In this document: one piece after another, positions 9,454 through 34,605 of the stretch
Position numbering within the stretch: the stretch's first letter is position 1
How the letters are laid out: every line of letters starts with the position of its first letter
NCBI GenBank assembly: GCA_947480015.1
Contig: CANKBS010000018.1
Location: 1 to 64,000 of the forward strand
Direction: 5' to 3'
Source: Sphingobacteriaceae bacterium
GTDB lineage: Bacteria; Bacteroidota; Bacteroidia; B-17B0; Aurantibacillaceae
Length of the DNA stretch: 64,000 nt
The notes under the pieces: model-generated
The model's database searches: none
Told to the model about the DNA's origin: nothing
The model's input: the letters and a program-made list of their open reading frames with translations, nothing else
Position numbers and translations under genes: made by a program

Positions 9454-9810
9454 ATTAAACCTGTTGTTCTAGGCATTAAAATTAAACAAACAAATTTTGT
9501 TTGCTTGGCGTTCTATTAAGGACATGAGACGTGTCCTCCGTGTTTATTTTTGATTTTTTTCTAGGCTAGATCAGTCTGTCGCATAGCTGTGCGGCTATAC
9601 TAATCTTTACCGATTTTGTAGTGTTAGGTTTTTTAAAATTAAAAGCTAATTCAATTGACTTAATTAGCGTTTAATTTTTAATCAAATTTGCCAAACAAGT
9701 ATATTAATTATTGAATCGACTTTCTCACCGAGCAAGCCTCGGTATCAATTTGCTTTTCTCTGTATAATTTTATAACGGTCCCCTCTGTACTAATTTGAAA
9801 TTAAGTTTGT
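9454..9810. other. Intergenic region between E2 and the first giant surface protein
   Basis: About 357 bp without a gene. It holds several small palindromes: CAAACAAATTTTGTTTG (9487-9503), GGACA/TGTCC arms at 9520-9536 followed by a T-rich run that could terminate the E2 transcript, CGCATAGCTGTGCG (9580-9593), and ACCGAG/CTCGGT arms at 9727-9743. The next giant gene also has an ACCGAG...CTCGGT pair in its upstream region (15833-15838 and 15920-15925), but with a much larger loop. No reliable -7 box at a workable distance from the 9811 ATG was found. Confidence 0.4.
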
Positions 9811-12800
9811 ATGAAATATCCGATCTTATATGCAGTTATTTTTCTGCTTTTCTTTACAGAGAGATTGGTTTGTCAAAGCGAAAACAGTCATCCGGTTACT
9901 GCCATCGCATCCTCTAAAACCATTGATTTTACTGCTAATGGCGACATATACGGCACACGTTCATTCGTTGAAAACAAAGGGCAGTTTCATCTTGGTTCAC
10001 AAACAAGCGACAGCATACTTTTTTTATATGAACATGCCGGTGAGAAAATATTTTTTACGAAACAGGGTTTAATTTATGAATTTGTAAAATCCTATCCACT
10101 AAGTGAACGTCAATTAGAAGCCATTGAAGAAGGTAAAAAAGTGAAAACAAAAGACCCGCATTACTACTATGCGTTTATGAACTGGCCAGGTTTTTCGGCC
10201 GATAGCGTAAAGATTTCGGGAGCAGAAAAACAGCTTAATTATTTTACATATGGCACCGAAGAACTTAATGCCTACACCTATAAAAAAATAATTTACAAAA
10301 ATATTTATCCAAACATCGACATCGAATACAGCATCCCGAGTAATAGAACATCCGGCATCGAATACGCGTTTATCCTTCGCCCTGGCGCTAATCCGGCTAA
10401 CATAAAAATTCTTTATTCAGGTGACGTAAAAAAAATCAGTGAAAACAAACAACAAGAGATTCAGATAAAAACGTCGCTTACTAACATTGTTGAACATGTA
10501 CCCACTAGTTTTTATGACGATGGTAAATCGATTTTATCTGCATTTAAACTAAACGGTGATACCATTCTGTTTGAACTTGAAAATAATCTTGATAAGAATA
10601 GAACGCGTATTATTGATCCTTGGGTAACGAGTATTACAACCCTACCCTTTAATGATTGTGCTTATGATGTAGATTATGATTTCGCCGGAAATGCCTTTAT
10701 ATATGGAGGTTCACCACTCCCAAAAGTTGCAAAATATAATCCAAACGGCACCTTATTGTGGACATTCAGTGGCACACTTATCAGTCCAAGTTGGAGCTCG
10801 GTGGGTTCGGGCACTTTTGTTGGAAATTTTGTGGTTCATAAGTTTTCAGGTAAATGTTATATCGGCCAGGGCGTTAATACCAGTGGCACCGGATCAAAAA
10901 TAATCAGGTTAAGCAGTACTGGTTCCTATGATAATTTTATAACATCCAATAATTACTTGAATCAAGAAGTGTGGGACATGGGTTTCCGATGTACGACAGG
11001 TGAAATATTTGTACTGGGAGGTGGGCATAGCTCAAATTCGTCGGCAGGTATTATTAGCGGAAACACGCCAAATATTTTGCTGACAACTTTTCAACCCACA
11101 AACACAAACTGGGTACATGATATTGCATCACATGCTGTGGACGACAATGGTAATTTATTCGTTTATTATTCTACTGCGTCCAATGTTGCGTTAAATAATC
11201 GCATTTGTTCTGTTAATTCTACCTTCAACGGCAGTAACTGGCTCCAAGCAAGTGGTTTTAATGTTTTGGGTGAGGTCGCAAATAAACTGAATTATATTAC
11301 ACCTTCCAGTCCCTTGTCATCAGGTGGCTACAATTGTTTAGCGGTAAACAATAATTTTGTTTTCTATTATGACGGTATTCATTTGGCAGCATATTCAAAA
11401 CTATCGGGTGCCTTATTAGCCACCCTCACAACCAGTCTTAATCCAAAACAACAAGGTGGTATTGCTGTGGATGCCTGCAACAGAGTTTATGTCGGTGGAA
11501 ACGGTTCTATTTTACATTATAGTTTTACCGGAACCGGCTTTATTCTAATAAGTACCATTCCAATTGTCACAAACAGTCCTTTTGCCTTTGTGTATGACCT
11601 TCGTTTGAACGAAAACACCCAAACTCTTTTTGCTTGTGGTAGTGGCTTTATAGGGGCATACAATGTGGCTGCGAGTGCAGTTTGCCGAACATATTCAGGC
11701 ATTTGCAGTATGAGCCAATTAGGGATGTCGATTACTTCTTCTTCTATTGGATGTTTATCGAATGGTTCGGCAACCATTACAATGGCAGGTGGTACCGGAC
11801 CATTTACATACACTTGGTTACCCAGTGCTCAAACGGGTTCCATTGCAACGGGATTAAATGCTGGCACCTATACTGTATTTATTCTCGACGTTGGGACAAA
11901 CCTAAGCTATTCCACAACAACCGTTTTTAATTCACCTTATAATTTCACAGGCTACGTGACTAGTCATCTTTGTTACGGTTCAGTTGGAACAGCCACGGTT
12001 TTTAATGTTAGCGGAGGTATGACATCACCAAAATATATATGGACTAATGGTGTTTGGACACAAACGACAAGTACAGCCTATCTCAGCGGTTTATCGGCCG
12101 GAAATTATACCGTCAATGTGATTGATTCGATTTCAGGTTGTGGTTTTATATCCACTTTTTCGGTTTCAACAAATCCTCAAATTAGTCACACTATAAACCT
12201 AACGAGCCCAAGCGTTTGTGTCGGTCAAACAATTTTTTTAAATGTCCTCGTAAATGGCGGCACGCCATATTACTATGCACCTGCCTATACCTATAGTTGG
12301 TCCACAGGATCCTTAACGCCCTTTATTTCTGTTAATCAAACCATTCCGGGCAACTATACGTATACCTTCACGAGTTCTGATTCAAAAAATTGTAGTCAAA
12401 CTTCAATTGTTACCTTAACGTTTTATCCCAATCCATTAATTACTGTTGCCAACGCTACTATTTGCTCTCAGAGTTTAGGAAGCATAACGGCATTCGGCGC
12501 AAATTCTTATACCTGGAGTACAAATATCATTGGAAACACACTCGTTCAAATGCCTCTCAGTACAACGGTGTATTCCGTTATTGGCGCATCCTATGGTTGC
12601 ACCGCTTCTGCCCAAGCCTCATTGGTCGTGAAACCTAGTCCAATAATTTCTTTAACCAACAATAGTCCAATTTGTGAAGGTGATTCATTAAAACTTCATG
12701 GTGAAGGTGGTTTAAGTTACAGTTGGCAAGGACCACTTAGTTTTACAAGTACCGGTCAAAATGTTGCCATTCCTTCCACGCATGCAACCAATGCCGGAGT

Positions 12801-33180: not shown

Positions 33181-33283
33181 GAAAAGCCCCTCCGAAATAA
33201 ATCGAAAGTGCTTTTCTGATTCATGGGAGGAGACTTAGGGTTTGGGAGCGCAGGTTTCTCGCTACCAAACGAGTCATAATGCT
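33181..33283. repeat. Structured intergenic repeat, copy 1 (hairpin plus ~54-nt core)
   Basis: A 7-bp hairpin, GAAAAGC (33181-33187) with GCTTTTC (33210-33216), is followed by a core at 33229-33282 that resembles the cores at 34156-34209 and 34338-34392. Shared blocks are GGAGAC at the start, AGGG, GCGCAG in the middle, TACC, and GAGTC..AATGC at the end. Within this copy TTTGG.AGCG (33241-33250) can pair with CGCT.CCAAA (33260-33268). CCTCC (33189-33193) could also pair with GGAGG (33226-33230), an interlocked pseudoknot-like topology. The remainder of the 336-bp gap (33055-33389) shows nothing else I can support. Confidence 0.55.
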
Positions 33284-33389
33284 AAAAAAAGGTTAAGACC
33301 GACTGAATAACATCAATAAAGAAACAACCTGCAAAATTTTAAAATTTAGTTTAGTGTAATTTTTCAAAGAATATTACGTTATTGATGTA

Positions 33390-34007
33390 TTGAAAATAAA
33401 TCTTGCTATAATAGCCATTTTTAATTGTGTTTGGCTATGCGCTCAGCATAGCTACCAGTCACCATTTCGCGCCGGGCTTAAGCTGGGATTTTCGTATCAT
33501 ACACTCTCGGGAGATCTTACCAGGAGTCGTCCTTCCGGAGACTTGTTAGGAGGATTCTGGCTCCAGCTAAAACTGAACAAAAAATGGACCGCTCAGACGG
33601 AACTTTTATTTTTAGATAAAGGAATCGGTGAACGAGGAAAGACCCCACATTTTGTAACGCTCCGTTATTTTGAAGTTCCCGTCCTTTTTCAATACCATAA
33701 TAAGAATATTTATTTTGAATTTGGTCCGGGTTTGGGGTATATGATTAATTTAACTGAACATTTAAATGGTAATGCATCGCCCAATCTGGTAAATAAATAT
33801 CCATTAACTAGAAGCGAACTTTCATTCAACCTTGGTATTGGCTGCAACTTAAATGAGAAGTGGGCACTCGGAGTAAGACTGAGCCATTCTTTATTGCCGG
33901 TGAGGAGCGCTGTTCCATTAGTCTCTAAAGAGTCGTATAATCGTTTATTAGCTTTTAGCTTAACTCGCCAGCTAAAGAGAAAGAAAGCTAGTGATCCACA
34001 AGAATAA
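33390..34007 (+). CDS. Outer membrane beta-barrel protein (porin family-like)
   Basis: A 205-residue secreted protein. Signal peptide to about residue 18 (IFNCVWLCAQ), then alternating amphipathic strands with FRAGLKLGFSYHTLSGDL, WLQLKLNKKWTAQTELLF, YFEVPVLFQYH and YFEFGPGLGYMI, the pattern of the small outer-membrane beta-barrel (PorT-like) group in Bacteroidota. The start is a TTG; the closest upstream ATG runs into a stop. It is flanked on both sides by members of an intergenic repeat family. Confidence 0.72.
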   Translation: MKINLAIIAIFNCVWLCAQHSYQSPFRAGLKLGFSYHTLSGDLTRSRPSGDLLGGFWLQLKLNKKWTAQTELLFLDKGIGERGKTPHFVTLRYFEVPVLFQYHNKNIYFEFGPGLGYMINLTEHLNGNASPNLVNKYPLTRSELSFNLGIGCNLNEKWALGVRLSHSLLPVRSAVPLVSKESYNRLLAFSLTRQLKRKKASDPQE

Positions 34008-34110
34008 TAAGCAAGTAAAACTTGTATTGTTGCTTGTATATACCCTTCACTTGAATGTGATGCGAACCGAAAAATTATTTAATAAAGGTCAAGAAGGCTC
34101 AATAACCATT

Positions 34111-34209
34111 AATAAAGTTCATTTATTTTAAATAAATGAACTTTATTTGCTCCGCGTAGAAGGAGAGATGTGCTGCGCTGATCTCTATTCCCTCCCAGAG
34201 TCAGAATAC
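34111..34209. repeat. Structured intergenic repeat, copy 2 (18-bp hairpin plus core)
   Basis: AATAAAGTTCATTTATTT (34111-34128) is a perfect 18-bp inverted repeat of 34131-34148 with a 2-nt loop. It is followed by a core at 34156-34209 that aligns over its length with the core at 34338-34392. The core contains its own stem, AGAGAT (34164-34169) with ATCTCT (34181-34186), around a GTGCTGCGCTG loop, and ends GAGTCAGAATAC. The same stem in copy 3 is AGGGAT/ATCCCT, a paired substitution that preserves pairing. Confidence 0.55.
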
Positions 34210-34238
34210 AATAGTAGACCCGTGAAAAACGGATCTAA

Positions 34239-34298
34239 TTTTTGTTTTCACACCCTTCATTGAAAGCAAGCTTTCAACAAGGGCGATGAAAACAAAAA
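34239..34298. repeat. Long imperfect hairpin preceding the first GGTTTGAGC terminator
   Basis: TTTTTGTTTTC (34239-34249) pairs perfectly with GAAAACAAAAA (34288-34298), and internally CCTT/AAGG and TTGAAAGC/GCTTTCAA (34260-34277) extend the stem. An analogous but different-sequence hairpin occurs at 34419-34481, in the same place relative to the second terminator copy. Confidence 0.55.
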
Positions 34299-34325
34299 AG
34301 GTTTGAGCTTTGCTCAAACCTTTTG
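34296..34325 (-). terminator. Duplicate GGTTTGAGC intrinsic terminator, downstream of a tRNA-Ser remnant
   Basis: GGTTTGAGC (34300-34308) and GCTCAAACC (34312-34320) form a 9-bp stem with a 3-nt loop, extended by A/T runs. The 53-nt block 34300-34352 repeats at 34482-34534 with few differences. On the minus strand it follows a 20-nt piece of tRNA-Ser 3' sequence (34333-34352), as the functional terminator follows the intact tRNA. Confidence 0.6.
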
Positions 34326-34332
34326 TTATTTA

Positions 34333-34392
34333 TCAGCGGAGACCGAGGGATTAGCTGCGCAGATCCCTTGTTACCTGACTGAGTCGCAATGC
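34333..34392. repeat. Structured intergenic repeat, copy 3, containing a tRNA-Ser 3'-end fragment
   Basis: TCAGCGGAGACCGAGGGATT at 34333-34352 is identical to 34515-34534, which spans the 3' end of tRNA-Ser. The core 34338-34392 then diverges from the tRNA and continues with TAGCTGCGCAG, closing the stem AGGGAT/ATCCCT, and ends TGAGTCGCAATGC, like the other copies. It may be a decayed tRNA-Ser copy, an integration scar, or a tRNA-derived repeat. Confidence 0.55.
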
Positions 34393-34418
34393 AAAAACAA
34401 AACGCCATTGCGTTTAGT

Positions 34419-34481
34419 TTTTTTTGTTCGTCCAACCACGAGCGTGAGCTCGCTCCCGCTGTGATTAAACGAACAAAAAAA
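34419..34481. repeat. Perfect 12-bp-stem hairpin preceding the tRNA-Ser terminator
   Basis: TTTTTTTGTTCG (34419-34430) pairs with CGAACAAAAAAA (34470-34481), and an inner GAGCG/CGCTC stem lies at 34440-34455. It occupies the same position relative to the terminator as the hairpin at 34239-34298, with unrelated stem sequence but the same T-run/A-run design. Confidence 0.5.
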
Positions 34482-34505
34482 GGTTTGAGCAGAGCTCAAA
34501 CCTTT
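34479..34505 (-). terminator. Intrinsic terminator of tRNA-Ser
   Basis: GGTTTGAGC (34482-34490) and GCTCAAACC (34494-34502) give a 9-bp stem with a 3-nt loop. On the minus strand it begins 14 nt after the tRNA discriminator base and is followed by TTTTTTTG, the classic form of a factor-independent terminator. Confidence 0.8.
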
Positions 34506-34518
34506 TTGCATTTTTCAG

Positions 34519-34605
34519 CGGAGACCGAGGGATTCGAACCCTCGATACGGTTACCCGTATACAAACTTTCCAGGCTTGCTCGTTCGACCACTCTGACAGG
34601 TCTCC
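34519..34605 (-). tRNA. tRNA-Ser (anticodon GGA)
   Basis: An 87-nt class II tRNA on the minus strand. The acceptor 5' strand GGAGACC pairs with GGTCTCC, the anticodon stem CAAGC/GTTTG closes a CTGGAAA loop with anticodon GGA (reads UCC/UCU Ser codons), a long variable arm TATACGGGTAACCGTATC follows, and the T-arm reads CGAGGGTTCGAATCCCTCG. The discriminator is G, as in bacterial tRNA-Ser. CCA is not encoded (CTG follows), so the CCA-adding activity at 54175 would be needed. Confidence 0.96.

Follow-up and report, generated by a model that had tools for sequence, protein, structure and literature searches.

Covarying hairpin units behind tRNA and tmRNA genes of Bacteroidota as candidate T-loop-integrating cassettes

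A real, widespread and structurally constrained family of repeats is associated with tRNA and tmRNA genes in Bacteroidota. The stems of these repeats covary strongly, and one fold is kept while the letters change. The explanation that we favour, with somewhat better than even confidence, is that the repeats are non-autonomous integrating cassettes that would enter the T-loop of tRNA and tmRNA genes and be moved in trans by a putative recombinase.

The units of the window and their common architecture

The window (the whole stretch of 64,000 nucleotides that was analysed, contig C18 of a source genome of 3.77 Mb in 66 contigs) holds two complete units and one decayed junction behind a tRNA-Ser(GGA) gene, arranged as follows.

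34518..34605, minus strand: tRNA-Ser(GGA), the host gene, with T-loop GATTCGAA on the plus strand (ARAGORN, Rfam)
34336..34517, minus strand: unit A, the proximal candidate cassette, with P1, H1, H2, H3, the GACTC motif, J3 and then a tRNA 3'-end copy
34477..34507, minus strand: H1 of unit A, an A/T-tract hairpin, terminator-like (inverted repeat I10, fold)
34419..34481, minus strand: H2 of unit A, a long imperfect palindrome (inverted repeat I6, fold)
34400..34415, minus strand: H3 of unit A, a AAACGCCATTGCGTTT hairpin (sequence, fold)
34388..34397, no strand: P1 closing-stem arm of unit A, AATGCAAAAA (sequence, P1 covariation)
34503-34512: P1 second arm of unit A, TTTTTGCATT (sequence, P1 covariation)
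34346..34368, plus strand: J3 junction hairpin, copy 3 of the initial annotation, AGGGATTAGCTGCGCAGATCCCT (sequence, alignment, covariation)
34336..34352, minus strand: displaced tRNA-Ser 3'-end copy, GCGGAGACCGAGGGATT on the plus strand, identical to the tRNA
34154..34335, minus strand: unit B, the distal candidate cassette, of another sequence type and the same architecture
34164..34186, plus strand: J2 junction hairpin, copy 2 of the initial annotation, AGAGATGTGCTGCGCTGATCTCT, both arms differing from J3
34154..34170, minus strand: outer arm of unit B, GCGTAGAAGGAGAGATG, a diverged tRNA-end-like copy (14 of 21 positions equal to the tRNA end, common suffix absent)
33225..33283, plus strand: copy 1, a decayed isolated J with the GAGTC and AATGC motifs and no adjoining hairpin unit seen

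The initial annotation had described three repeat cores beside tRNA-Ser, and these are present at the positions it gave and can be aligned with each other. The change on both sides of the core stem that it had reported between copies 2 and 3 is real, and so is the terminator and tRNA 3' end common to copy 3 and tRNA-Ser (34294-34352 versus 34476-34534, 59 nt, 88%). A repeat of core size (~54 nt) proved too small: the cores correspond to the junction ends (J) of units measuring ~160-185 nt, and copy 1 is an isolated decayed J with a degenerate core at about 33237-33259. Two of the hairpins preceding the cores, which had been called unrelated, belong to the unit (H1-H3), while the broader idea of a covarying-stem repeat family tied to tRNA 3' ends is supported. 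In the window, Rfam and ARAGORN recognise tRNA-Ser(GGA) only, with no model for the units. Between copies 1 and 2 lies a gene for a 205-aa outer-membrane beta-barrel protein (PF13568; 33390-34007, plus strand), which could be cargo or an ordinary neighbour, and just outside copy 2 an 18-bp perfect inverted repeat with a 1-nt loop (AATAAAGTTCATTTATTT, 34111-34147) is perhaps the old terminator of a displaced tRNA end.

The units share one order, in which the tRNA 3' end is followed by H1, H2 and H3 inside the closing stem P1, the GACTC motif, the J hairpin and, often, a repeat of the tRNA 3' end. Their size is near-constant: among 60 units (3 of 63 having been removed as more than 93% similar to another), lengths run from 150 to 208 nt and fall between 160 and 185 nt in 54. 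In the tRNA sense, the consensus of 44 units begins with CCGC-N-GATAAATGCAAAA, H1, a T-rich tract and H2 with its apex near GTTGAAAGCTTGCTTTCA, and continues with an A-rich tract, H3, TTTTTGCATT-N-TGACTCTGGG and then J, which reads AGGGATCA-CG-AG-TAATCCCT. P1 consists of the arms AATGCAAAA and TTTTGCATT, subterminal inverted repeats that enclose the three hairpins. The core of J is GATT...GATC, and on the strand opposite the tRNA a T-G mispair stands beside it in 91 of 107 parsed junctions. The loop that separates GATT from GATC measures 9 nt in 62 of 94 strict junctions and ranges from 7 to 17 nt, a spread to which a fixed double-stranded core site would be poorly suited. There is no coding signal in the 60 units, where the longest complete ATG frame per unit has a median of 18.5 aa as against 20 aa in shuffled sequence. 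Partial units that begin inside H2 also occur.

Folding of single units gave -63 to -78 kcal/mol for the four folds printed, two of which, including unit A of the window, have the whole P1-H1-H2-H3 shape, the remaining two keeping J and lacking P1, and one of them H2 as well. Over the 60 units, the median z for fold stability is -6.4 and -7.0 on the two strands. In alignment A5 (P1, the H2 apex and J paired; H1 and H3 excluded as poorly alignable), which took 44 of the 60 units and left 16 out by choice, probably flattering the result, and whose own fold largely supplied the tested structure, favouring it against slid controls, 90.4% of cells are paired over 26 pairs, compared with 37-51% when the structure is slid, and the covariation score is 0.344, compared with at most 0.092 slid and 0.141 shuffled. 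Two-sided changes are seen in 20 of these 26 pairs, and in 8 of the 10 pairs of P1, the arms of which lie ~130 alignment columns apart. Part of this covariation could have arisen from template switching between hairpin arms, without selection.

The initial annotation had left open a mobile stem-loop, a tRNA-derived repeat and a structured RNA. G-T and A-C mispairs number 37 versus 24 on the tRNA-sense strand (44 units) and 23 versus 31 on the other strand (118 junctions), and this near-equality neither singles out a folded transcript nor points to one strand. On balance a mobile DNA cassette is the better reading, with a junction in which one arm often comes from the tRNA 3' end.

Position behind tRNA and tmRNA genes and distribution

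With a broader covariance model (R2, 49 sequences), 118 distinct junctions were recovered in 79 of 81 loci searched, after 6 of 124 matches had been dropped for overlapping a better match on the other strand; the loci were picked by a model match or a tRNA region, and match density is biased accordingly. For 59 of these junctions, a tRNA or tmRNA gene stands on the expected side and strand at no more than 700 nt. The other 59 comprise 21 inner members of arrays, 7 junctions at contig ends and 31 with no called gene (copy 1 of the window among them), and none has a tRNA or tmRNA gene within 700 nt on the wrong side or wrong strand. Several of the 31 gene-less junctions adjoin tRNA- or tmRNA-like ends that ARAGORN had not called. 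In 40 of the 45 junctions that stand first behind a gene, the distance to it is 98-132 nt, the exceptions being 53, 153, 225, 226 and 525 nt; these 45 were selected by side and strand, the control being the absence of a wrong-side gene from all 59 others.

The hosts of these 45, as called by ARAGORN, are tRNA-Ser(GGA) (12), tmRNA (8), tRNA-Ser(UGA) (7), tRNA-Ser(GCU) (6), tRNA-Arg (4, one of which is 89 nt long and perhaps a tRNA-Ser), tRNA-Cys and tRNA-Lys (2 each) and tRNA-Ala, -Asp, -Gln and -His (1 each); by eye, tRNA-Met and tRNA-Pro are hosts as well in the source genome. The tie to tRNA-Ser suggested by the initial annotation is thus not specific, and a full unit is missing behind several tRNA-Ser genes.

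The tRNA 3' end is repeated at the far flank of 20 of the 45 first units, that is, in under half of cases, and in 8 of these 20 the identity ends at exactly 17 nt, corresponding to about the T-loop to the gene end. Within 90 nt after the outermost displaced ends, a terminator-like hairpin is found in 15 of 18 cases; four of these flanks (L178, L183, L184 and L186) resemble the beginning of another unit, and the count is 11 of 14 without them and 8 of 11 when three doubtful flanks (L196, L201 and L202) are also removed. The corresponding figures are 13 of 27 for outermost ends without a gene-end copy and 464 of 1500 for random 90-mers. In G067, AAAAAAAAGCCCCGAATTATCGGG follows the displaced end. 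Such a repeat of the tRNA 3' end at the far flank, followed by a terminator, is what insertion into the T-loop would leave. The far flank of the remaining 25 first units shares just 4-9 nt, ending in GATT, and this absence of a gene-end copy is the main weakness of the insertion model; possible reasons are decay, a lost flank or joining to other sites.

The repeat family suspected from the three cores does have further members and exceeds what chance would give. A covariance model built from six copies (R1) matches, at E ≤ 0.01, 7 places in the source genome, of which three are in the window, one on C8, one on C20 and two on C3, four of the 7 being source copies of the model. The tRNA-Met and tRNA-Pro regions of this genome score E 0.46 and 4.1, and by eye each holds two units, the second at tRNA-Met being partial. 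R1 matches 15 of 41 genomes (the source genome included, along with G001 and G009, which also supplied model copies), all of them in one genus of the 17 sampled. With R2, matches at E ≤ 0.01 are present in 37 of 87 genomes of the family (the source genome included) and 4 of 10 genera, and at E ≤ 0.001 in 10 of 247 genomes drawn from the class and 8 of 135 genera, three of the ten belonging to the same family as the source.

In a collection of named species, the H2 apex pattern occurs in 27 stretches, 23 of which have Bacteroidota titles (Chitinophagaceae, Sediminibacterium, Flavobacteriaceae, Bacteroidales and others); at least three of the 27 (L235, L238 and L245) appear common to the genome survey, and the two surveys are not independent. 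The remaining stretches are one uncultured bacterium and three from Bacillota, Eubacterium or Clostridia. In 19 of 30 matches in this collection the distance from the apex back to a tRNA or tmRNA gene is 44-54 nt; none of the three non-Bacteroidota matches shows this, and they may be due to chance. In 33 further loci Rfam matched tRNA, tmRNA and one Flavo-1 only, with nothing for the units. No match was obtained in IMG/VR with the H2 pattern as single query, or in PLSDB and INPHARED with unit A as single query.

Origin of the units

According to the proposed mechanism, cassettes of ~160-185 bp without conserved genes would enter tRNA and tmRNA genes of Bacteroidota at the T-loop, the target on the strand opposite the tRNA being X-GATT^CGAA, with X standing for the gene's 3' end. 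Once the cassette is inserted, a complete gene would stand beside it, followed in order by P1 enclosing H1, H2 and H3, the GACTC motif and the junction arm, with the old gene end X and its own terminator displaced to the far side. At J, X-GATT would pair with GATC and a complementary arm as a hairpin. Repeated insertion together with slippage would generate tandem arrays, in which different cassette types are sometimes adjacent. Mobility, the enzyme and the active strand are what we infer here: new copies would arise by insertion rather than by tandem duplication, the recombinase would be supplied in trans, and it would recognise the folded shape, whether a cruciform or single-stranded DNA. 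A bolder version, which we put forward as speculation with a modest chance of being right, is a second folded-strand recombination system beside integrons, whereby a shape-reading recombinase would link multi-hairpin cassettes to the T-arm, which as a hairpin in its own right would be the entry site, so that many tRNA genes are usable and the gene is restored in each round. Should cassettes of one shape indeed be inserting behind these genes throughout Bacteroidota, they would form a new class of mobile DNA linked to tRNA genes, could furnish essential genes with terminators, and would be likely places for assemblies and chromosomes to break. A conserved fold with free sequence makes shape-based recombination directly testable.

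Comparison of units gives a mixed pattern of relatedness. Units A and B of the window are of different sequence types, and the nearest relative of unit A (0.84) is a tRNA-Ser(UGA) unit on another contig of the same genome. Similarity within genomes averages 0.668 (36 pairs) versus 0.616 between genomes (1734 pairs), a value as high being reached in 0 of 2000 label permutations. Despite this likeness, the nearest partners of several units stand at other tRNA types, as with the tRNA-Ala unit of G052 and the tRNA-Ser unit of G074 (0.83), or the tRNA-Arg unit of G013 and the tRNA-Ser unit of G048 (0.82). The sister genomes G067 and G068 are 91% identical over 5 kb at one locus, and tRNA-Ser(GGA) is followed by one unit in G067 and by two in G068. 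At the purL flank the break in synteny between them falls at J, G067 having tRNA-Ser(UGA), unit and J, and G068 a different region, unit, J, partial unit and J; the shared junction is changed on both arms (GGATC..GATAATCC versus GGGTC..GATAAACCC). The search of sister genomes for an empty site yielded a rearrangement breaking at J and no clean insertion, and no filled and empty pair of one site explicable by a single insertion was found. The two units of G043 are nearly identical, and tandem duplication alone could make arrays.

Candidate enzymes were sought among recombinases and transposases, and none could be linked to the units. The tyrosine recombinases of the source genome include XerC-like, XerD-like and IntI-like genes and two others, and its single Y1 transposase is IS200-like. 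A Y1 transposase was rejected as the mover, being present in 28 of 37 genomes with units versus 29 of 50 without (p=0.11); a Y1_Tnp match is absent from 9 of the 37, including the near-complete G043 and G006. A link to integrons through the 390-aa IntI-like recombinase (C50) likewise gained no support: no J-like site was present among the hairpins listed in 20 homologue loci, and the sequence after this recombinase resembles, by eye, ordinary integron cassettes. This IntI/XerA-like tyrosine recombinase (L074/L120, G000:C50:128-1297; homologues L110-L129) has an extra N-terminal region of ~120 aa, and has matches at E ≤ 1e-30 in 37 of 41 genomes, of which the weaker look plain Xer and a number lie near contig ends. 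In G001 and G021 it is followed by integron-cassette-like sequence, again by eye, and together these are perhaps a chromosomal integron of Bacteroidota.

The near-constant distance to the gene, the spacing of the H2 apex in 19 of 30 matches, the terminator-like H1 directly behind the gene and the very stable, conserved fold would also suit a structured RNA or insulating terminator block 3' of the transcripts of tRNA and tmRNA genes, which was duplicated locally and is retained for the role of H1 in transcript termination or maturation. We consider this unlikely: H1 should halt transcription ahead of H2, H3 and J, several tRNA-Ser genes stand without a full unit, 20 of 45 first units have the gene end repeated beyond them, often with a terminator, and both the nearly balanced mispairs and the lack of an Rfam family for the units argue against it. 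Nor do we attach more than a small probability to the suggestion that covariation and arrays are mainly mutational, with palindromes that template switching corrects and slippage multiplies, and the fold functionless. Pairs that are almost all Watson-Crick, the J arms changed jointly between G067 and G068, and the partial units beginning inside H2 are consistent with such an origin, but the two-sided changes in 8 of 10 pairs between the distant arms of P1, and an order of P1-H1-H2-H3-J kept with its motifs behind many tRNA types, speak against it.

The T-loop location is equally that of island att sites, and the units could be scars of tRNA-targeting integrative elements, namely att ends left after the island middle was lost and piled up by accretion in the manner of CIMEs. 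In G055, a gene-less junction adjoins a probable island end with a large gene recognised by eye as resembling a metal-efflux pump, and T-loop-like sequence lies against the unit, while in G001 foreign sequence next to a unit has a 17-bp tRNA-Ser end at its edge. A single fold that keeps P1, H2 and J across tRNA types would, however, be unexpected from the scars of many integrases, and an unsystematic look revealed no large version with an integrase between the halves; scars of this type are rather improbable. That GIY-YIG homing endonucleases drive the spread by cutting tRNA genes appears very improbable, and the link of these enzymes to the units is suggestive, not convincing. By tblastn with two queries, a GIY-YIG gene is carried by 5 of 79 unit loci, within ~410 nt of J in 4 of them, and in G009 (L070, 10177-10407 and 9745-9828) the gene lies directly behind tRNA-Ser, between it and a unit. 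Such genes are also more numerous in genomes of the family with units (mean 7.2 versus 4.0, p=0.0009 after correction for genome size). Against this, none was found in 27 further unit loci or in 16 tRNA-Ser stretches chosen as lacking a full unit (~11 distinct places), 86 of 87 genomes have them, and the excess within genus is not significant (p=0.20).

Further observations concern neighbouring sequence. G009 also has a partial second tRNA-Ser and a truncated second GIY-YIG copy, a duplication bounded by a unit, and G005, with one R2 match and no GIY-YIG match, is 73% complete. In G001 (C1), the same 17-bp tRNA-Ser(GGA) end occurs at both ends (~2039760-2039776 and ~2083423) of a ~44 kb segment, a possible integrated island. 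A conserved stretch of ~140-260 bp with the tRNA-like GGTTCGAACAGGGTAAATTTGAGCCCGC, or a close match to it, is probably the end of an integrative island; it occurs in L278 (~9656-9841), L276 (~9977-10188), L182, L054, L286 and L277, and adjoins a unit in L278, L182, L054 and L286, a partial one in L276 and none in L277. In L278 and L276 it lies beside genes that, recognised by eye, we take to be metal-related.

Comparison with known systems

A limited literature search of open-licence PMC papers found no description of these cassettes. Integron cassette arrays and CALINs have a single orientation, short hairpin sites that keep shape over sequence, and an array that may lack an adjoining integrase, and integron attC sites carry R boxes with AAC...GTT at the folded site. 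The arrays described here likewise have one orientation and a foldable, covarying site, with no integrase seen beside them. Unlike attC, the junction consensus has GATT/GATC in place of an AAC/GTT R-box pair, and unlike integrons there are no cassette genes and the target is the tRNA T-loop, not attI.

REP/BIME sequences with their RAYT transposases, and MITEs, are similarly short, palindromic, non-coding and present in several copies, and movement in trans would be a further likeness; the units differ in lying at tRNA and tmRNA T-loops and in having no significant association with a Y1 transposase. A MITE has terminal inverted repeats and a target duplication tied to a transposase; the P1 arms of the units are subterminal inverted repeats, and no partner transposase was found. 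Tycheposons are also tRNA-bounded mobile elements, but those are multi-gene, carry tyrosine recombinases and are found in other bacteria. CIMEs and accretion at tRNA genes share the tRNA-end repeats as bounds, seen here in 20 of 45 first units, the lack of a recombination gene and the tandem arrangement, whereas the units are far smaller and have one fold common to unrelated tRNA genes.

Accretion is named in the sections of PMC3146451 drawn on here, which deal with the closest system found, the ssrA islands of Dehalococcoides. As described there, these islands, with the serine integrase DsiB, insert into the T-loop of tmRNA, leave displaced 20-bp copies of the gene end, and form tandem arrays behind the gene with a conserved junction motif (PMC3146451). 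The putative T-loop insertion, displaced gene ends, tandem arrays and junction motif of the present units are all alike in kind. The ssrA islands, as these sections present them, carry genes, many with an integrase, and lie at ssrA (PMC3146451), whereas the units are ~170 bp, have no conserved genes, occupy many tRNA genes and share a covarying fold.
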